From assembly GCA_016177705.1 (NCBI GenBank), contig JACOUT010000013.1:62001-126000 (forward strand): 64,000 nucleotides of DNA. The letters are read 5' to 3'. The position numbers and the translations under genes are program-made. Of the stretch, positions 49,712-60,072 are shown piece after piece. This DNA is from Deltaproteobacteria bacterium. Lineage in GTDB: Bacteria > Myxococcota > UBA727 > VGSZ01. The notes under the pieces are model-generated. The model was not told the origin of the DNA and ran no database searches. It worked only from the letters and a program-made list of their open reading frames with translations. Position 1 is the stretch's first letter, and each line of letters starts with the position of its first letter.

Positions 49712-51010
49712 TCAGCGGCCGATGCCGACGTAGCTGAAGCCCTTGTCGCGCAGCGCCTGCGGCGGGTAGATGTTGCGCCCGTCGAACACGGCGGGGTTCT
49801 CCCCCATGCGGCGCTTGATCTCGTCCCAGTCGGGCATGCGCAGCTCGGCCCACTCGGTGAGCAAGCAGACCGCAGAAGCGCCGTCGACCGCGGCGTACTC
49901 GTCGTCGGTGAAGTGCACCTTGTCGCCGAAGCGCGCGCGCGCGTTCGCGATGGCGGCGCGATCGTACGCGCGCACCTTGGCGCCGGCGGCCAGCAGCCCC
50001 TCGATGAGCGGCAGCGCAGGCGCGTCGCGGATGTCGTCGGTGCGCGGCTTGAACGCGAGCCCCCAGACCGCGACCGTGCGGCCCTGCAGCTCTCCCTTGA
50101 AGTGCGCGAGCAGCTTGGCGAGCAGCAGGCCGCGCTGGCGCAGGTTGGCCGCCTGCGCCGCCTCCGCGATGCCGAGCGTGACGCCCTGCTGGCGCGCGGT
50201 GACGAGTAGCGCGGCCACGTCCTTGGGGAAGCACGAGCCGCCGTAGCCGACGCCGGCGTAGAGGAAGGCCTTGCCGATGCGCGAGTCGGACGCGATGCCG
50301 CGGCGCACGTCGTCGATGCAGGCGCCCACCTTCTCGCACAGCGCCGCCATCTCGTTCATGAAGGAGATGCGCGTCGCCAGCATGGTGTTGGCGGCGTACT
50401 TGGTCAGCTCGGCGCTCCTGGTGTCCATGTGCAGGATGCGCAGCTCGCGCAGCATCATGGGCTGATAGAGCCGCTCGAGCACGCCGCGCGCGAACGCGTC
50501 GTCGGTGCCGATGATGATGCGCTCAGGCTTCAAGAAGTCGTTGACCGCGTCACCCTCCTTGAGGAACTCGGGGTTCGAGGCCACGTGGATGGCATGCGCG
50601 GCGCCCTTCGCCACCTCGCGCAGGCGGTCGGCGGTGCCGACCGGCACGGTGCTCTTGGTGACGACGACGCAGGGACCGGTGACCGCCGCGGCCACCTCGC
50701 GCGCCGCACCGAGCAGCGCGGTCAGATCGGCGCTGCCGTCGGCGGCGGGCGGCGTGCCCACCGCCAGCACCACGACCTCGCGGCCTGGCACCGCCTGCGC
50801 GAGCTTGGTCGAGAAGGTGAGCCGCCCCGCCTTGACGTTGCGCGCCACCAGCTCGTCGAGCCCGGGCTCGTAGAAGGGGATCTCGCCCTTCTCGAGGCGC
50901 TTGACCTTGGCCTCGTCGACGTCGACGCAGATCACTTCGACCCCGAGGTCGGCGAGGCCGGCGCCCGTGACGAGGCCGACGTAGCCGGTGCCGACGACTG
51001 CGATCTTCAT
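49712..51010 (-). CDS. ugd: UDP-glucose 6-dehydrogenase
   Basis: 432 residues. It has the NAD-binding start KIAVVGTGYVGLVTGAGL, the catalytic Cys in GYGGSCFPKDV, and VWGLAFKPRTDDIRDAP in the C-terminal domain. It oxidises UDP-glucose to UDP-glucuronate for capsule, exopolysaccharide or LPS. It lies 54 bp downstream of the motility-like cluster on the same strand and may be co-transcribed, linking envelope polysaccharide to it. Confidence 0.96.
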   Translation of the reverse strand: MKIAVVGTGYVGLVTGAGLADLGVEVICVDVDEAKVKRLEKGEIPFYEPGLDELVARNVKAGRLTFSTKLAQAVPGREVVVLAVGTPPAADGSADLTALLGAAREVAAAVTGPCVVVTKSTVPVGTADRLREVAKGAAHAIHVASNPEFLKEGDAVNDFLKPERIIIGTDDAFARGVLERLYQPMMLRELRILHMDTRSAELTKYAANTMLATRISFMNEMAALCEKVGACIDDVRRGIASDSRIGKAFLYAGVGYGGSCFPKDVAALLVTARQQGVTLGIAEAAQAANLRQRGLLLAKLLAHFKGELQGRTVAVWGLAFKPRTDDIRDAPALPLIEGLLAAGAKVRAYDRAAIANARARFGDKVHFTDDEYAAVDGASAVCLLTEWAELRMPDWDEIKRRMGENPAVFDGRNIYPPQALRDKGFSYVGIGR

Positions 51011-51064: not shown

Positions 51065-52468
51065 CTAGCCGCCCGAGGGCTGGAAGACGAACGAGTTCGA
51101 GATGGTGACCTCGCCGTCCGACGGCGCCGGGAAGCGGATGCGCTTCATGGTCGCGAGCACGCAGCTCGCCACCTCGCTCGAGCCGAGCCCGTCGCGCACC
51201 ACGCGCGCGTCGGTGACCTTGCCGCCGTCGCCGATGGTGAACTCGATGACCAGCTTGCCTTGCAGCTTGGAGTTGGCGCGCAGCGCGGTCTCGTAGCAGG
51301 CCTGGAAGGCGTCCTGCCGACGCCGGATGGTGGCCGCCACGCCCTTCTTGTCGACCTTGCCGTCCACCGCCTCGACGTCGTCGGCGCGCACGCGCGCCAC
51401 GATGCGCGCGGTCTGCTTGCTGCCGGTGTCGACCTTGCCCCCGCCGCCGGTGCCGAGGTCACCGATGCCGGCAGCGCCGCCACCGAGCCCACCGCCAGTG
51501 CCGTCGCCGGCCACGCCGCCGCCGCCGGTGCCGCGTCGCGTGACGCCGCCGGCGCCGCCTGCGCCCGCGATGCCGACGCCGGCCGTTCCCTGCAACGCGT
51601 TGCCGATATCGTCGCTGATGGAGGAGCCGGCGCCGAACACGGAGCCGACCGCGCCACCGCCGCCGCCGGCGCCGCCGCGGCCACCGATGAGCTGCAGGAT
51701 GCCGCGGCCGGCGATCTGATCGCGCAGCGCGCTGCGATCGCCCACGCCCTTGCCGCCACCGCCGCCTTTGCCCTTGCCGCCACCCCCGCCGCCGCCGCCG
51801 CCGTCGCCCTTCTCCACCACCTTCTCGCCGGGGCCCGGGCCGGTGGTGACCGGCAGATCGATGTTGACCGCGATCTTCGGCACCTCGACCTTGGGCGGCT
51901 GGATGGTCTCGACGAACTTGCGCAGGTCCTCGAGGTCGTCGCGCACCTTGGGCGGCTCGGCGAGGCGCACGAACAACGCGAGCACGGCGTGCATCAGGAA
52001 CGACGCCAACAGCACCGCGGTGAAGACCGGCTCGAGGTTGCCTACGAAACCGCCGCGCAACTCGGCCGGCAGCGCGCCCGGAGCCACCTTGGGCGCCTGG
52101 GGCACGAAGTGGAACAACACTTGGATCTCGTTCGAGAGTCGGATGCGGCCGCGCGCGGCCTCGGGCAACGACAACCGATACCGGTCGCCTTGCTTGGAGG
52201 CCTTGGCCTTCAGCTCCGAGAGCTTGACCGGCTTGCCCGGCTCCGGCTCGATCTGGCCCTGCGCGTCCTCGCCGAAGACGAGCTGGTAGCCCTCGCCGCC
52301 GGTCTCGAACACCGTGATGGACTTCGGCAGGTCCGAGCTCTGCAGCACGAAGGTATTTCCAGGCGCTGTGCCGAAGGAGACCGGCGCGCGGTCTGCCACC
52401 ATGCGCTCCTCGATGACGCTCACCCCCTGGATGACGCCGATGCGCAAGATGTTCGGGGGGTTCGCCAT
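51065..52468 (-). CDS. PglI/GltG-like protein: FHA-type domain, membrane helix and AgmX/PglI C-terminal domain
   Basis: 467 residues. About 8-120 is a beta-rich FHA-like cytoplasmic domain (RAPVSFGTAPGNTFVLQ, RIRLSNEIQVLFHF). One membrane helix lies near 143-165 (FTAVLLASFLMHAVLALFV). A long Gly-rich periplasmic linker, including a run of nine Gly, spans about 210-360. The last 100 residues are the TonB-like AgmX/PglI domain (RRRQDAFQACYETALR, GKLVIEFTIGDGGKV, MKRIRFPAP). In Myxococcus, GltG/PglI with this plan links the AglRQS motor to periplasmic parts of the gliding or spore-coat machinery. It follows aglS-like by 184 bp. Confidence 0.88.
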   Translation of the reverse strand: MANPPNILRIGVIQGVSVIEERMVADRAPVSFGTAPGNTFVLQSSDLPKSITVFETGGEGYQLVFGEDAQGQIEPEPGKPVKLSELKAKASKQGDRYRLSLPEAARGRIRLSNEIQVLFHFVPQAPKVAPGALPAELRGGFVGNLEPVFTAVLLASFLMHAVLALFVRLAEPPKVRDDLEDLRKFVETIQPPKVEVPKIAVNIDLPVTTGPGPGEKVVEKGDGGGGGGGGGKGKGGGGGKGVGDRSALRDQIAGRGILQLIGGRGGAGGGGGAVGSVFGAGSSISDDIGNALQGTAGVGIAGAGGAGGVTRRGTGGGGVAGDGTGGGLGGGAAGIGDLGTGGGGKVDTGSKQTARIVARVRADDVEAVDGKVDKKGVAATIRRRQDAFQACYETALRANSKLQGKLVIEFTIGDGGKVTDARVVRDGLGSSEVASCVLATMKRIRFPAPSDGEVTISNSFVFQPSGG

Positions 52469-52652
52469 GAGTCCTTCCGCCTCTCGCCGCGGCCACCCGG
52501 CCACGCACCATCAGGACACCGCCAAAAGGGGCACTGCCCTTTCACGACACCGCTGGCCCATGCGCGGTTCCGAGCAGTCTAGGGCCGGATCCGCCACCTG
52601 CCGCAACTACCAGCCAGACAACGTCTCGCGGCCTCCCAGGGTCTCTCTATCG
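52469..52652. other. Gap inside the motor cluster with no gene seen
   Basis: 184 bp between the AglS-like and PglI/GltG-like genes on the same strand. I see no open frame of credible composition and no clear promoter or hairpin. It could hold a second promoter for the last gene. Confidence 0.5.
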
Positions 52653-53336
52653 CTACTCGGGTCGGATCACGGCGAAGCGGAAGTCGGCGAAGCCGGACTC
52701 ACCGCAGGTCACCAGCACGTCGGTGAGCACGCGGTAGGGCGTGCGCCGGTCGGCCAGGATGATGACCTTGCCGTCGAAGCTCTTGCCCGAGAGCTGCGCC
52801 GTCACTTCCTTGACCGCCTTCTCACGCTTGAGCGCCTCGCGCAGCGGCATGATGACGTAGCCGCCGGAGGCCGGATCCTTCACCGCTTCCGGCACTCGGT
52901 AGCTGGCGGCGTCCAGCTCCGCGATGGGCTGGCCGTTCACCAGGATGCGCGGCGTCACTTGCTGGATCTTGGTGCCGGTCTCGGTGGCGCGCTTCACCTC
53001 GGGGCCCGTGACCATCACGATGGTCGTCTCCTCGATCTTGCCGCAGCCGTCGGGCGGTAGCTCGTCGGAGGGGAGCGTCTCGTCGGGGATGCACGTCGAG
53101 CGCGGCACCTCGACCGAAGGATCGTTGACCTCGACAGGGTTGGTCGCGAACGTCGACAGCAGGTAGACCAGCAGCATGGTCACCATGTCGGTCAGCGAGG
53201 TGATCGAGATGGGCGGCGTGCGCGCGAAGTGCCGCCGCTTGCGACGATGCGACGTCCCCTCCTCGGACTTGCGCAGCTCCGCCGACCAGCCCTTGTAGGG
53301 CCCGGTGCCGTCGGAGGTGTCGGTCTCGCCCGCCAT
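52653..53336 (-). CDS. AglS-like ExbD/TolR motor subunit
   Basis: 227 residues. A basic cytoplasmic N-terminus is followed by one membrane helix with the proton-channel Asp in SLTDMVTMLLVYLLS (Asp50), equivalent to the ExbD/TolR channel Asp. The periplasmic part (about 70-227) has two cysteines (STCIPDE, DGCGK) and the ExbD-type fold ending ADRRTPYRVLTDVLVTCGESGF. With AglR-like and AglQ/V-like proteins it should form a proton-driven stator. It starts 15 bp after the second ExbD-like gene. Confidence 0.92.
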   Translation of the reverse strand: MAGETDTSDGTGPYKGWSAELRKSEEGTSHRRKRRHFARTPPISITSLTDMVTMLLVYLLSTFATNPVEVNDPSVEVPRSTCIPDETLPSDELPPDGCGKIEETTIVMVTGPEVKRATETGTKIQQVTPRILVNGQPIAELDAASYRVPEAVKDPASGGYVIMPLREALKREKAVKEVTAQLSGKSFDGKVIILADRRTPYRVLTDVLVTCGESGFADFRFAVIRPE

Positions 53337-53351: not shown

Positions 53352-53912
53352 CTAGCCGACGATGCCCGCGGCGAAGGCCACGGAGGGAAAGAGCAGCTTG
53401 CCGTCCGCAGACTTCCGCGCGGCGTCCATGACGTGCACGATGTCGTCGTATTCGACGTCGGCGTCGGCGCTGACGATCATGCTCTGCTCGGTAGGGAAGG
53501 TCTTCTTGATCTCGATCAGGCGCTTCTGCAGCGTCTGGAAGTCGTAGCCGATGGTGCTCTTGCTCCCCTGGGTGGTCTGGATCTTGGGGATGAGCGGTTG
53601 ACCAGGCCGGCCTTCGCTGTTGCCGTCGAGCGTGGCTCCGGTGGCGCCAATGTTGATGCCGTCCTTGAGGATGAACACCGTCAGGTTGAGCGTGGAGGGC
53701 GGCGCGTCGGCGCCGGCGGTGCCGTCGGCCACGTTGCCGCCGCCGATCTGCGGCGCCTGCACGTTGAGCATCGCGAGCTGGGTCCATGCCGTCAGCGTCA
53801 TGGTCGACAGGATCAACATGAACATGATGTTCAGGAACGGCGTGACGTCGAGGTCGAGCGCTTCCTCGTCGCCGGGCTCGCGGTGTCGTCGGTCGGACGG
53901 CTTCTGCGACAT
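53352..53912 (-). CDS. AglQ/AglV-like ExbD/TolR motor subunit with Asn at the channel Asp position
   Basis: 186 residues. The membrane helix begins DVTPFLNIMFMLILS, aligning with the ExbD pattern TPFIDVMLVLL, so Asn28 (codon AAC, complement of 53829-53831) occupies the position of the proton-carrying Asp. The periplasmic domain (about 55-186) ends VSADADVEYDDIVHVMDAAR, typical of the family. In other respects it is a normal TolR-like subunit, with AAGGA upstream of the ATG. Whether it still conducts protons or is a structural partner of the AglS-like subunit is open. Confidence 0.92.
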   Translation of the reverse strand: MSQKPSDRRHREPGDEEALDLDVTPFLNIMFMLILSTMTLTAWTQLAMLNVQAPQIGGGNVADGTAGADAPPSTLNLTVFILKDGINIGATGATLDGNSEGRPGQPLIPKIQTTQGSKSTIGYDFQTLQKRLIEIKKTFPTEQSMIVSADADVEYDDIVHVMDAARKSADGKLLFPSVAFAAGIVG

Positions 53913-53976: not shown

Positions 53977-54630
53977 CTACTGGGCTTCGGTGCCGTCGAG
54001 GCCGCCCTTGCCGCGGGTGGTCAAGAGGTTCTCGAGCTTGACCGAATAGAAGTCCAGCTCGTCGATGATCTTCTTGGTCATGCCCGCGAGCACGAGGTGC
54101 GAGAAGAGCGCGGGGATGCCGATGAGCAGACCGAAGGCGGTGCAGTTCATGGCTTCCGAGATCGCGCCGGTGAGCACGGTCGCCTTCTCGGCGGCGGACA
54201 CCTTGGCGACGGCACGGAAGGCGCCGATCAGGCCGAACACAGTGCCGAGCAGGCCGGCGAGCGTGGCCAGCGACGCCAGCGTTCCGAGCGCGTTGCTGCG
54301 CTTGGTCAGCTCCGGCACCACTTCGAGCGAGGCCTCCTCGATGGCGTTTTGGATCTCGGTCTCACCCTTGTTGGCGCGCGTCAGGCCAGCCTTGATGACC
54401 CGCGCCAGCGCGGCGTTCGGCGCTGCGTTGCACAACTTGATGGCGCGGTCGATGTTGTTGGCCATGACCAGCTTCTGGATTTGGGCCATGAACGCCGGCG
54501 CGTTGATGTTGTAGCGGAAGAAGATGAAGATGACGCGCTCGACGGTAATGCCGATCACCAGGAACGACACGAAGGCGATGGGCAGCATCCACAGGCCGCC
54601 CTCCTTGAAGAATGTGATGATCGCGCTCAT
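53977..54630 (-). CDS. AglR-like MotA/TolQ/ExbB channel subunit
   Basis: 217 residues with three membrane segments: about 10-34, 112-138 and 153-177. It has LLGTVFGLIGAF and ISEAMNCTAFGLLIGIPAL, the two conserved pore-lining motifs of TolQ/ExbB. A large cytoplasmic loop with GETEIQNAIEEA separates helices 1 and 2. It should surround the ExbD-like dimer as the channel ring of a proton-motive motor. It is the first of three motor genes in the order TolQ, TolR, TolR, as in aglRQS. Confidence 0.93.
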   Translation of the reverse strand: MSAIITFFKEGGLWMLPIAFVSFLVIGITVERVIFIFFRYNINAPAFMAQIQKLVMANNIDRAIKLCNAAPNAALARVIKAGLTRANKGETEIQNAIEEASLEVVPELTKRSNALGTLASLATLAGLLGTVFGLIGAFRAVAKVSAAEKATVLTGAISEAMNCTAFGLLIGIPALFSHLVLAGMTKKIIDELDFYSVKLENLLTTRGKGGLDGTEAQ

Positions 54631-54714: not shown

Positions 54715-54966
54715 CTAGAAGGGCTGTTGTTCCACCGTCTTGATGATGCGGGCCTTGAGATCCTCTCGGCGCTCGAGGTCCGAGAAGTTGAGGTTGGTCC
54801 GAGGCAGGATGAAGAACGCCTCGGGCTTCTGGATGTTTCCCTCGATGATCAGGTCGTCGAGGGTGATCTTCTTGCGCTGGGCCGCGGCGGGCGCGGCGAT
54901 GACCAACGCCCCGAGCGCGACCACGAGCGCCAGCGCGGCACCGGCTCGAGCCCATGTCCATGTCAT
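54715..54966 (-). CDS. Small secreted protein of the motor cluster
   Basis: 83 residues. A signal peptide (about 1-29, AAPAAAQ cleavage) leaves a mature protein of about 54 residues, ITLDDLIIEGNIQKPEAF..., with mixed strand and helix and no cysteine. No family recognised with certainty. It is 97 bp downstream of the TPR lipoprotein and 84 bp upstream of the AglR-like gene, so a periplasmic accessory role for the motor or scaffold is a fair guess. Confidence 0.78.
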   Translation of the reverse strand: MTWTWARAGAALALVVALGALVIAAPAAAQRKKITLDDLIIEGNIQKPEAFFILPRTNLNFSDLERREDLKARIIKTVEQQPF

Positions 54967-55063
54967 GCGCGACTCCAGGCGACGCCGCAGTGCGGCATCG
55001 GGAGCATACTAGGAGGGGAGCCCACCGACGAGCAAGCGCACGCGCAGGCGTTTCTGGTGCCGC

Positions 55064-56491
55064 TCACTTCTTGCCTCCGGCCGCGGGGGGTGGTGCCGCA
55101 GGAGGACTGACAGCGGGGGGCGGCTTGGCGGTTCCCGGATCCGGCGCCTTTGGCTTGGACGCAGCCTCGGCGTCCTCCTTCTTGCGCCGCTCCTCGCGCT
55201 CGCGCCGCTTGATCTCCTTCTGGATGCGCTTGTCGGTGGCGTCGATGTACTCGGCGAGCCGAGCGGCGACCGCGGGCTCCGGCTTGGCCTTCGCATGGTA
55301 GTCCCGCAACGCCGCCAGGCCCTTCTGCAAGCGCACCAGCTCGTCCTGCCCGGGCAGCGGGTTGTCGATGTAGAGGAGGCCGAGGTTGAAGCGCGCGTCG
55401 AGCAAGGAGGGATCGAGCTCGAGCGCCATCTTGTAGGCCTGCTCGGCATCGACCCAGCGCTTCTCGGCGCGCAAGCCGTTTCCGAGATGGAGCTGGGCAC
55501 GGCCGCTCCTCGGATCGTTCTTGCCGGCCGCCTCGAAGGCGCGCGTGGCCTCGGCGCCGAAGCCCTGCTTGAGCAAGAGCACGCCGTAGTTCTCCTGCGC
55601 CTCGGCCAGCGTGGGCCGCAAGCGCGCGGCCTTCTCGTAGGAGACCAGCGCCTTCTTCTCGTCGCCGAGATCGACGAAGACGTGACCAAGCTCCAGGTGG
55701 ACGAGCGCGTTGCCGGGCTCGACGCCGAGGGCGTTTTCCAGAGCGAAGCGGGCGGTGTCGAGGCGCTTCTGCGTGCGAAAGACCTTGCCCATCAGCAGCA
55801 TGGCTGCGGTGGACCGCTCGTCGTAGCGCACGGCGAGCACGGCCTCGCGCTCGACGGTGGCGAGGTCTTTCTCGTGCCATGCGAGCGTGGCGGCCGCCAG
55901 GTGCGGCCCCGAGCGATCCGGACTTCGCTTGAGCGCGTCGTCGACGAGCTTCTTGGCGTCGCCGGACCGGTTGGCACGCACCAACAAGAGCGCCAGGTTG
56001 GCCATGGCCGGGCCATAGTCCTGCCTGGTGGCGAGCGCGGTGCGGTAGTGGCGCTCGGCCGTGGCGACGTCGCCGGCCGCCTCCGCCGCCGCGCCCGCGC
56101 TGAACCACGCGGCGTAGAAGTACTTGGTGCGGTTGGCCGCATCGACGAAGCGGCCCACCGCCGCCGCCGGATCGGTGCGCGCCGTCTCCGCCGCTGCCAG
56201 GAACGCGTCCCGCGCACCACCCGTCGACGGCAGCCAGTTCTCGTCGTCGATGACCTCGGTCTTGGCGACCGCGGGAGCCGGCGCCGGTGTGCGCACCGGC
56301 TCGGTCGGCGCCGGCGCCGGCGCGCCGGCCGGCGTCGGCGCGGGCGCCGCAGACGTCCCGTCCACAGGCGCGGCGTCGACGGGCGCGCTCGCCGCGAACT
56401 CGTCGGGCTTCTGCGAGGTGGTCTCGCATGCCGAGCACACGACGAACGCGGCAACGGTCAGCAGCACGGGCAGGAGCCGGGTCGCACTCAT
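55064..56491 (-). CDS. TPR lipoprotein, AglT/GltE-like
   Basis: 475 residues. The lipobox VVCSAC (Cys22) ends the signal. A Pro/Ala/Thr-rich spacer (about 30-75) leads to at least eight TPR-like helical pairs (about 90-390; for example PGNALVHLELGHVFVDLGDEKKAL and RAQLHLGNGLRAEKRWVDAEQA by pattern), then a very basic helix (KREREERRKKEDAE) and a Pro-rich tail. Myxococcus AglT/GltE is a TPR protein next to PglI. The start overlaps the stop of the large TPR gene (ATGA). It is probably an outer-membrane or periplasmic scaffold. Confidence 0.85.
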   Translation of the reverse strand: MSATRLLPVLLTVAAFVVCSACETTSQKPDEFAASAPVDAAPVDGTSAAPAPTPAGAPAPAPTEPVRTPAPAPAVAKTEVIDDENWLPSTGGARDAFLAAAETARTDPAAAVGRFVDAANRTKYFYAAWFSAGAAAEAAGDVATAERHYRTALATRQDYGPAMANLALLLVRANRSGDAKKLVDDALKRSPDRSGPHLAAATLAWHEKDLATVEREAVLAVRYDERSTAAMLLMGKVFRTQKRLDTARFALENALGVEPGNALVHLELGHVFVDLGDEKKALVSYEKAARLRPTLAEAQENYGVLLLKQGFGAEATRAFEAAGKNDPRSGRAQLHLGNGLRAEKRWVDAEQAYKMALELDPSLLDARFNLGLLYIDNPLPGQDELVRLQKGLAALRDYHAKAKPEPAVAARLAEYIDATDKRIQKEIKRREREERRKKEDAEAASKPKAPDPGTAKPPPAVSPPAAPPPAAGGKK

Positions 56492-59400
56492 CCGGCGCTC
56501 CCCTTCTGCGACAGCTCGCCCGGCCCGGCGCCGACGGCCTTGAGGGCCGGCGCACCGCCATCCGGCAGCGCCGGCCCGAGCGGCGCCGTGCCGCCCTTGA
56601 CCGGGCGCGAGATCGGCTCTTTGTCGATGGGGAACTCTTGGGGCCGCAGCAGGTTGAGCGCCTCCAAGGTCCGCCGCGTCCAGAGGTTCTGCAAGCGCAG
56701 CTCCTTGGCCTTGTTGTAGGCGGTCCGGTACGCGTCCACCGCCTTCTCTTCTACGGCGAAGGCGCGATCCTCGATCAGGTTGCGGTACTCGTCGCAGGCG
56801 ATCTCGCCGGCCAGGCGCCGCACGTCGTCGGGGCACGGGCTCTTCAGCACGGTCTGCTGCAGGTTGTCGTACAGCGCGCCCACCCGATAGAGCGACGCCA
56901 GGCTCCACTCGGCGGCCTTGTAGGTGGTGATGATGTCCTTGAAGCTCGCCTCGACGCTCACCAGGCGCGTCGACTTGGCCTCGAGCTCCTTCATCTGCAC
57001 CTTGCTGTTCTTGCTGGTGATGGCGAGGCGTGCGTAGCGCGCGTAGTCCTGCTCGGCGAGCGCGAAGGCGGACTTGGCGGCGAAGTAGGCGGCGGCGGGC
57101 GAGCCGCGCGCGCGCTCGAACTGCTTGACCGCCGCCTGGTAGCTCTCGGTGGCGCGCTTCTTCGCCTTGGTGGGATCGGACGCGGTCCTGGCCTGCTCGT
57201 CGAAGATCTCGCCCATGCGCGCGTAGGCCTCGACGACCTTGGGGGCCTGTGCGTTCCTGCTCTCGTAGCGCCTGATGAAGCGGTTGAGCACGTCCAGCTC
57301 GGCGCCGGGCGCGCCGCGTTTCTTGTGCACGGTGGCCGCCTGGTAGAAGACGTCGGGCGCCTCGGGGCGGTCGGGGAACAACGTGGCGAAGCGCTCGAAT
57401 TCCTGCGCTGCGCGCTCGTATTTCTGCTGCCCTTCGAGCGCGAGCGCGGCGTTCACCTGGGCGTCGGGTCGGCGCTCGCTCTTCGCGTAGGTCCTGACCA
57501 GCGTCAGGTAGGTGGCGACGGCCTTGTCGAACTCGAAGACCTGCTCGCTCTTGGAGGCGACGCGGAACATCGCCTCGGGCGCGTTGTCGCTGTCGGGGTA
57601 CTCCTTGTAGAGCCGCTCGTAGAGCGCGGCCGCTTTGATGGGCCGGCGCGCCTTCTCGAGCGAGAGCGCGGCGTTGTACATCATCTTGTCGGCGAACTCG
57701 CGCTTCGGGTCCGCGGCGATCAGCTTGAGGTAGCTGTCGGCGCCCCTCTCGAGCAGCGCGTTGCCCTCTTGAATACGGCCCTCGTCGAGCAGCTTGGCGC
57801 CGTTCTCGAGCGTGGCCTTGGCGATCTCGAATTCTGCGCCACCCTTGATCTTGGCGAACACCGCGGTGTCGCCGCCGCCGACCTTCTCCTTCTCGAAGCG
57901 CTCGGCGTACGCCGCCGCGGCGGTCCAGTCCTTGCGCGCCACCAGGTCGTCGAGGATCAGGTTGGCCGCGCTCTTGGACGCCTCGCTCGCCGGGAACTTG
58001 TCGACGACGATCTGGAAGCGCTTCACCGCCTCGTCGTAGTGGCCATAGGAGTACAGCACCTCGCCCGCGTGGTAGCCGAAGTTGGGCGCCATCTCGTGGT
58101 CGCCGCCGCGCTCGAGGAAACGGTCGATGGCGGCGATGTACTTCTGACGCAGCTCGGGGATGGGCTCGGGCTTGACGTTTGGGTCGCGCTTGCCGGCGAA
58201 GATCTCGCGCTTCTCGAGCTTGCCGGTCTGCACCGCCTGCTCGATGATCTTCTCGTACGCATAGACCGCGTTCAGGCCCGCCTCGCCGCGGTAGCGCGTG
58301 CCTGCGGGCGAGTCGCGCACCGTCTCGTAGGCGGCGACCGCGTCCTCGAAGCGCAGCGAGTAGTAGTAGGTCTCGGCCAGGTAGTACGACAGCTCGTACG
58401 CGTTCTTGTCGTGCGGGTAGCGCTCCAGGTACTTCTTGTACGCGCCCGAAGCCGCCTTGAAGTACTGCAGCGCCACCTCTTGCTTTTCCTGGCTGTAATA
58501 CTCGGACGCCTGCTGGTGGTAGTAGAGCGCTGCCGAGTAGAGGTTGGTGCGCGCCAGCGTCTCCGCCTGGTTGAGCGCCTCGCTGTCGTTGCCGAAGCGC
58601 TTGTACCAGGGCGTGCCCTTGCCGTAGCTCGCCACCAGTACGTCGCGCGCGGCGTTGGCCTTGTCGAACTGCCGCTCGCGCACCCACGCCTGCACCACCA
58701 GGTCCTGCAACTTGGGCGCGTCGCGGTGCATGGGGTCGAGCTCGAGCGCGTAGGAGAGCGCCGCCACCGCCTGCGCATGCTTCGACTGCTTGAACAGGTT
58801 GCTGCCGAGGCGTGCCATGACATCCCGCTCGAAGGGCTTCTGCTCGCCGGTGCGTTTGAAGGTCTCCTTGGCGTGGCCCACGTAGTCGACAGCGAATTCC
58901 GCGTCAGGCGCGTCGGCCGACTTGCCCTTGACGAGCGTCGTCCACTCCGGGCGCTTCCAACCGTCGTCGCCGAAGCTGATGGCGACGTACTGCACGCTCT
59001 CCTCTTCGAGCACCGAGCCCGACTCGCCTGAGGCCTTGTCGCGGTTGGCGTGTGAGTACTCGAGCAGCTCGAAGAAGCGCTGCACGCTCTCGTCGTAGCG
59101 GCTGACCAGGTAGTAGGTCCACGCCAGCTTGTAGAGCGCCTTGTCGTAGTACTCGCTCTCACGCAGCGGGGCCACGTGGAGGAAGGCCGCGATCGACTGG
59201 TCCCACTTCTCCTCGTCGAAGTACTGGTCGCCGATGCGGAACCACACCTCCGGGTAGAAGCGGCTCTTGGGGAAGCGGTCGACCAACGTCAGCCAAGTGG
59301 CGACGCCCTCCTCGGTGCTGCCTTGTGCACGCAGCGTGTAGCCGAGCAGGTAGTAGGCGCCGTCGACGAGGCGGTAGTCGGGGTACTCGGCGATCAGGCG

Positions 59401-60072
59401 GCGATAGAGCGCGACCGTCTGTTCGAAGTGCTTGGCCGGCTCGGCAGGAGGCTCACCCTTCTTGCCCCCCTCCTCCCACTGCTTGTAGCCGTCCTTCCAG
59501 TCCTTCATCGCCACCTGGTGCTCGTCGTCGTACTTCTCGAAGTACAGCTCCGCGAGGCGGAAGATGGCGTCGGGCGTGAACTCCTTGTTGTTGGGGTGGC
59601 GCTCGAGGAACCGCTCGAAGGCGGCGATGGCGTCGAGGCGGCGCGCGCGCTCCTCCTTCACCACCGGCTCGATGGCCTTCTTGTAGTTCTGCTCGATGGC
59701 GGCGCGGCGCTCTTTGTATTTGCGCTCCGAGAGCTTGCGCACCTCGTCGCGCGTCTCGGACGCCTCGCGCTCGTACGCCTTGACCGCGTCCTTGAGCGCG
59801 TCGTAGCGGGCCTTGAGCGAACCATCGTCCCAGGGCGTCCCCGGCGGGGTCTCGGGCTCGGTGGGAGTCGACGCCGTGCCCGGCACGTCGCCGACGTCCC
59901 CACCGTCCTCCGCCTGCGGTGCGGTGGGCGAGACGCCGACCGGCGCCGCGCCGTCGTCGGGCGGCGGTGGCGGCGGCTCGTCCTCGGCGCGCACCGTTGC
60001 TGCCGCCACGAGAACGGCCGCCACGAAAGCGGCCCGGGCGATCGGCAACAGGGAGGAGCGCACCAGGATCAC
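56488..60072 (-). CDS. Large secreted TPR scaffold protein
   Basis: 1194 residues. A signal peptide (about 1-29, ATVRAED) and acidic Pro-rich segment (30-85) precede a coiled stretch and then about twenty TPR/Sel1-like helical repeats (YRLVDGAYYLLGYTLRAQGS, ALYKLAWTYYLVSRYDESVQ, ELSYYLAETYYYSLRFEDAV). A last globular region follows. It should be periplasmic or outer-membrane associated. Its size and repeats recall the TPR components of the Glt/Nfs envelope machines, though I cannot name an exact counterpart. It overlaps both neighbours by 4 bp. Confidence 0.85.
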   Translation of the reverse strand: MILVRSSLLPIARAAFVAAVLVAAATVRAEDEPPPPPPDDGAAPVGVSPTAPQAEDGGDVGDVPGTASTPTEPETPPGTPWDDGSLKARYDALKDAVKAYEREASETRDEVRKLSERKYKERRAAIEQNYKKAIEPVVKEERARRLDAIAAFERFLERHPNNKEFTPDAIFRLAELYFEKYDDEHQVAMKDWKDGYKQWEEGGKKGEPPAEPAKHFEQTVALYRRLIAEYPDYRLVDGAYYLLGYTLRAQGSTEEGVATWLTLVDRFPKSRFYPEVWFRIGDQYFDEEKWDQSIAAFLHVAPLRESEYYDKALYKLAWTYYLVSRYDESVQRFFELLEYSHANRDKASGESGSVLEEESVQYVAISFGDDGWKRPEWTTLVKGKSADAPDAEFAVDYVGHAKETFKRTGEQKPFERDVMARLGSNLFKQSKHAQAVAALSYALELDPMHRDAPKLQDLVVQAWVRERQFDKANAARDVLVASYGKGTPWYKRFGNDSEALNQAETLARTNLYSAALYYHQQASEYYSQEKQEVALQYFKAASGAYKKYLERYPHDKNAYELSYYLAETYYYSLRFEDAVAAYETVRDSPAGTRYRGEAGLNAVYAYEKIIEQAVQTGKLEKREIFAGKRDPNVKPEPIPELRQKYIAAIDRFLERGGDHEMAPNFGYHAGEVLYSYGHYDEAVKRFQIVVDKFPASEASKSAANLILDDLVARKDWTAAAAYAERFEKEKVGGGDTAVFAKIKGGAEFEIAKATLENGAKLLDEGRIQEGNALLERGADSYLKLIAADPKREFADKMMYNAALSLEKARRPIKAAALYERLYKEYPDSDNAPEAMFRVASKSEQVFEFDKAVATYLTLVRTYAKSERRPDAQVNAALALEGQQKYERAAQEFERFATLFPDRPEAPDVFYQAATVHKKRGAPGAELDVLNRFIRRYESRNAQAPKVVEAYARMGEIFDEQARTASDPTKAKKRATESYQAAVKQFERARGSPAAAYFAAKSAFALAEQDYARYARLAITSKNSKVQMKELEAKSTRLVSVEASFKDIITTYKAAEWSLASLYRVGALYDNLQQTVLKSPCPDDVRRLAGEIACDEYRNLIEDRAFAVEEKAVDAYRTAYNKAKELRLQNLWTRRTLEALNLLRPQEFPIDKEPISRPVKGGTAPLGPALPDGGAPALKAVGAGPGELSQKGSAG

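Follow-up and report, generated by a model that had tools for sequence, protein, structure and literature searches.

In the window analysed here (the whole stretch of 64,000 nucleotides), an operon of the AglRQS kind encodes two different ExbD-type subunits, and the conserved ExbD channel aspartate (Asp25) is present in the AglS-like subunit only (Asp50), the AglQ-like subunit having Asn28 instead. Because the Asp has been lost from one axle protein but never from both, and this pattern is conserved across many families, comparison of the sequences suggests an axle made of two unlike subunits and a motor for which a single proton site can suffice. The reading that we consider probable, with some reserve, is an AglRQS-type motor in which a ring of AglR encloses one AglQ paired with one AglS, this heterodimer having a single carboxylate at the channel position. 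We regard the system as a variant of the AglRQS motor, not as a machine of a new kind. In current models of 5:2 ion motors, the drive passes between two equivalent acids, with 36 degrees and one ion each time, and the standard turnstile model has two sites and ten ions per turn (PMC9389320). The features concerned are the following.

56488-60072, minus strand: large TPR protein of 1194 aa, whose gene opens the conserved operon
55064-56491, minus strand: TPR lipoprotein, weakly GltE-like, 475 aa (Pfam TPR; NF033758 E 5e-12, below cut-off)
54715-54966, minus strand: small secreted protein of 83 aa with weak similarity to CglF (NF033764 E 9e-5, below cut-off; conserved in the operon)
53977-54630, minus strand: AglR-like MotA/TolQ/ExbB ring subunit, 217 aa (Pfam PF01618 E 9.2e-24; alignment to ExbB and TolQ)
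54241-54243, minus strand: AglR Thr130, equivalent of ExbB Thr148 (ExbB alignment)
54154-54156, minus strand: AglR Glu159, equivalent of ExbB Glu176 (ExbB alignment)
54139-54141, minus strand: AglR Thr164, equivalent of ExbB Thr181 (ExbB alignment)
53352-53912, minus strand: AglQ-like subunit of the ExbD family, 186 aa, lacking the channel Asp (Pfam PF02472; 12 orthologues in the taxonomic order)
53847-53849, minus strand: codon GAC of Asp22 (site -6), aligned with the conserved Asn19 of ExbD (profile alignment)
53829-53831, minus strand: codon AAC of Asn28, aligned with Asp25 of ExbD (profile alignment)
52653-53336, minus strand: AglS-like ExbD-family subunit keeping the channel Asp, 227 aa (Pfam PF02472 E 6.4e-9)
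53187-53189, minus strand: codon GAC of AglS-like Asp50, the only channel Asp that the pair still has (codon reading)
51065-52504, minus strand: GltG-like protein with an AgmX/PglI (TonB-like) C-terminal domain (NF033768, NF033760)

The AglQ-like reading frame scores above the cut-off of the Pfam ExbD family PF02472 (E 3e-13; 50.3 bits, cut-off 25.4), and when a profile built from the window protein together with nine relatives was aligned with E. coli ExbD, Asp25 fell on Asn28 and Asn19 on Asp22. The usual ExbD motif, N-x-x-P-x-x-D, accordingly reads D-x-x-P-x-x-N in this subunit. The original prediction that Asn28 (AAC at 53831-53829) replaces the channel Asp, with Asp50 kept in the partner (GAC at 53189-53187 in the adjacent reading frame), was confirmed for both proteins. 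In the AlphaFold2 model of the AglQ-like subunit, a helix spans residues 24-42 with Asp22 immediately before it, and the best ExbD match found by Foldseek was 8vgc (TM 0.70 by target, E 0.014), the mean pLDDT of the model being 69.5; we take this match as supportive and no more.

Genes of the operon follow the order large TPR protein, TPR lipoprotein, small secreted protein, AglR, AglQ, AglS and GltG-like protein, so that an AglR-AglQ-AglS triplet lies next to Glt-type genes. The same gene order surrounds the Asn-type loci of the window's taxonomic order and of Bradymonadales, and the fetched part of the canonical loci L072 and L155 agrees with it. The GltG-like protein exceeds the cut-off of NF033768 (90.6 bits, cut-off 40) and falls below that of the GltG model NF033760 (E 4e-26). 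As the GltG, GltE and CglF equalog models all remain below their curated cut-offs and the AgmX/PglI domain alone passes, these proteins are, by profile comparison, relatives of M. xanthus gliding proteins and not certified orthologues. An alternative reading of the TPR gene as 54963-56525 was rejected, being in the wrong frame and without a Pfam match; the right frame is 55064-56491. A UDP-glucose/GDP-mannose dehydrogenase gene (49712-51010) is found downstream of the GltG-like gene on the same strand.

AAC and GAC differ by a single base, and the Asn could in principle come from faulty sequencing or assembly at 53829-53831, or from a mutation there that inactivated the gene recently. Neither such an error nor close relatives with Asp, the two observations that the original prediction had named against itself, was found. 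The window's order yielded 12 orthologues from five families, in independent assemblies, and every one of them has Asn at the channel site; N28 is invariant in a ten-sequence alignment with 55% mean column identity, and Asn also occurs in genomes of the same family and of other families. In addition, dN lies far below dS, in Q as well as in S, which shows purifying selection, although dS is saturated in several pairs. An error or fresh mutation is thus vanishingly improbable, and recent pseudogene decay of the AglQ-like gene is rejected on account of the low dN. Post-translational deamidation of Asn28 to Asp was also considered and is unlikely, as the residue that follows is Ile and not Gly.

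The Asp-less Q state is clade-wide, not peculiar to the window motor, and possibly old. We searched 195 Myxococcota genomes and read the loci found; together with further searches, this gave 116 distinct AglQ-type genes, 37 of which lack the Asp and have Asn, Gly or Ser. Both partners could be read at 112 loci, with Asp in both at 73, lost in Q only at 33 and lost in S only at six; among these 112, no locus lacked Asp in both Q and S. The AglS partner of an Asp-less Q has Asp wherever it was recovered (33/33). Four further Asp-less Q genes have no S within the fetched DNA; one of the genomes concerned, G180, has an Asp-bearing S on another contig. The six loci with loss in S form a mirror clade, all in one family (f6), in which Q keeps Asp and S has Gly or Ala; the same six genomes also carry a second, separate locus with Asn in Q and Asp in S. 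The Asn type is also present in a named, isolated Bradymonadales strain, Lujinxingia vulgaris, with D-x-x-P-x-x-N in Q and Asp in S. A scan of all GTDB species representatives with one narrow peptide pattern returned Myxococcota-type loci only. We found no description of an Asp-less AglQ/ExbD subunit paired with an Asp-bearing partner in the open-access literature that was searched. Two loci call for separate mention. In the Bradymonadales locus L136, an Asn-type Q gene was observed with no R or S found within the 7 kb around it, and the locus L104, from a public record titled Euryarchaeota archaeon, carries the operon; since it resembles L017, a locus from the window's order, the title of the record is probably wrong.

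To follow the history of the two states, a tree was built from R and the periplasmic parts of Q and S, with the transmembrane motif left out. On this tree the Q state has to change three times and the S state once. A single origin of all Asp-less Q genes as one clade was rejected by the AU test (p 9e-6), which indicates several losses, or loss with regains. Since the independent events are so few, the observation that Asp is never lost from both subunits carries little statistical weight alone. When the tree was rooted with the third f6 paralogues as outgroup, the Asn-type Q formed a basal grade, in which case the Asp of canonical AglQ would be a regain; long branches meet at this root, and we do not rely on it. 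That a one-site heterodimeric AglRQS class (about 5 protons per turn) is widespread in Myxococcota and represents the older form, the second site of M. xanthus having been regained later, is offered as a doubtful possibility.

The same counts could also be explained if two copies of AglS, with two Asp, made up the axle (two copies of AglQ in the mirror clade) and the Asp-less paralogue had left the pore to become a regulatory or peptidoglycan-binding partner. This would account for the Asp always being kept in one of the pair, ExbD, TolR and MotB as a rule form homodimeric axles (PMC12215075, PMC9389320), and a 2022 review lists homo- versus heterodimerization of AglQ and AglS as unknown (PMC9389320). 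Against it stands the tight constraint on the pore motif of the Asp-less helix, whose channel site holds a polar residue, in most cases Asn: Pro is at -3 in all 35 distinct Asp-less Q motifs and in 5/5 Asp-less S motifs, Asn is at 0 in 33 of the 35, and Met usually stands at -1 and Leu at +1 in Asp-less subunits, whether Q or S. Moreover, Q always adjoins S and R, and is under similar selection. We judge the homodimer unlikely, though it deserves weight. The axle of one Q and one S fits best, because the partner Asp is strictly kept, the Asp-less helix is constrained, selection on Q and S is similar, and there is a reciprocal clade with loss in S. The asymmetric stator with one Asp put forward in the original prediction is thus upheld as far as the asymmetry goes, this being conserved, under purifying selection and in accord with reciprocal loss in Q or S, whereas its Q-S axle and altered coupling are what we infer from these data.

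For the heterodimer, the following working model may be proposed. R, Q and S, which co-occur in an operon of conserved order, would form an AglRQS-type motor of the Glt/Agl gliding core, powered by the proton motive force. Its axle would most likely be one AglQ and one AglS helix inside the AglR ring, with AglS Asp50 as the sole carboxylate at the channel position and AglQ as a neutral subunit filling the second helix position. Asn28 would then occupy the channel site, and Asp22 would lie where the pore opens to the cytoplasm. Asn28 is not expected to carry protons, because in M. xanthus the AglQ substitution D28N abolishes proton conductance and paralyses the machinery (PMC3858216), in agreement with the loss of function stated in the original prediction. 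Asp50 would load and unload protons against ring Thr130 and Thr164, with roughly one cycle for each ring subunit that it passes; in a rotary motor with one site, this would amount to about 5 protons per turn instead of 10, in 72-degree steps, and the force would exit via the GltG-like and TPR proteins. Against the model, D28N in AglQ alone stops the M. xanthus motor (PMC3858216), so that a single site is not sufficient for every ring.

Alignment to ExbB pairs T130, T164, E159 and P173 of the window AglR with T148, T181, E176 and P190, and the proton-path threonines (Thr130 and Thr164) are invariant in 68/68 sampled motors. Glu159 is kept in 22/25 two-Asp motors, 6/6 S-loss motors and 3/3 outgroup motors, but is lost, with Ile, Val, Met, Leu or Ala instead, in 30 of the 34 sampled Asp-less-Q motors; the remaining four are from the window's own family. 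Thus, most Asn-type motors have a single carboxylate when the ring sites examined and the AglS Asp are counted, and the window motor has AglS Asp50, ring Glu159 and AglQ Asp22. A paired-lineage test of the ring Glu change against Asp loss comprised three pairs, too few for significance, so that this association is a pattern only. As a separate observation, AglR Pro173 (54112-54114) is kept in 34/34 Asp-less-Q motors and is gone from most two-Asp AglR proteins.

Asp22 raises the possibility that two carboxylates have been kept, with that of AglQ moved six residues towards the cytoplasm to give two staggered sites. Consistent with this, an acid occurs at -6 in 19/43 Asp-less subunits against 1/185 Asp-bearing ones; it is present in all 12 orthologues of the window's order (Asp in nine, Glu in three) and was gained about four times on the tree, in the window's order, the Lujinxingia clade, L143 and the S of L066/L069. 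However, more than half of the Asp-less subunits have Asn (once Ala) at -6 and no new acid, and the paired-lineage test of the -6 acid against Asp loss, again with three pairs, was too small for significance and leaves a pattern only. Site -6, which we take to be TolR Asn17, is placed just outside the pore helix by comparison of the motif with TolR and by the AlphaFold2 model. The pore helix of E. coli TolR begins at residue 19, and the residues before it, up to 18, form an unfolded N-terminal stretch within the cytoplasmic cavity (PMC12215075), which also speaks against a second site within the pore. A relocated acid is hence quite improbable, and the heterodimer with one channel carboxylate remains our preferred reading. 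The single Asp-bearing subunit with an acid at -6 comes from the window genome itself, from its second AglR-Q-S set (L130, C9:48000-54000). In the Q of this set (VDLAALVDI), sites -6 and 0 are both Asp, and the residues between the two include no Pro. The same genome has one more AglR-Q-S set, its third (L131), which is canonical.

Among known systems, the AglRQS and Glt proteins of M. xanthus, which serve adventurous gliding and sporulation, are closest: the R-Q-S order, the ring with two ExbD-type subunits, the relatives of GltE, CglF and GltG in the operon, the AglS-type Asp and the ring threonines are all shared. In contrast, AglQ Asp28 is essential in M. xanthus (PMC3858216), whereas the window protein has a native Asn and a new acid at -6, and most Asn-type relatives also lack the ring Glu. 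ExbBD and TolQR of E. coli belong to the same protein families, with the equivalents of ExbB Thr148 and Thr181 invariant, but in these motors two copies of one protein form the axle and supply two essential Asp, unlike the two different axle proteins, one with Asp, of the window. The Bacteroidetes gliding motor GldLM, also of 5:2 type, has an axle (GldM) without an essential acid and the essential acid in the ring (GldL Glu49; PMC8986121), whereas in the window type one axle paralogue has the acid and the ring acid is usually lost.

The one-site experiment appears to have been run by nature at least twice, once per subunit, and comparing one-site with two-site relatives could tell if rotation, torque or direction depends on the second acid. 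These natural variants make testable whether the axle is a homo- or heterodimer and whether two sites are required; Lujinxingia vulgaris, which carries an Asn-type motor, belongs to a genus recorded as gliding (PMC7188933). One minor peculiarity was observed in the window's AglS-like protein. At the periplasmic end of its membrane helix, Ser61 (53154-53156) takes the place of the Lys of its relatives, giving LLSTFA instead of LLKTFA or similar, and within the family the window species alone differs.
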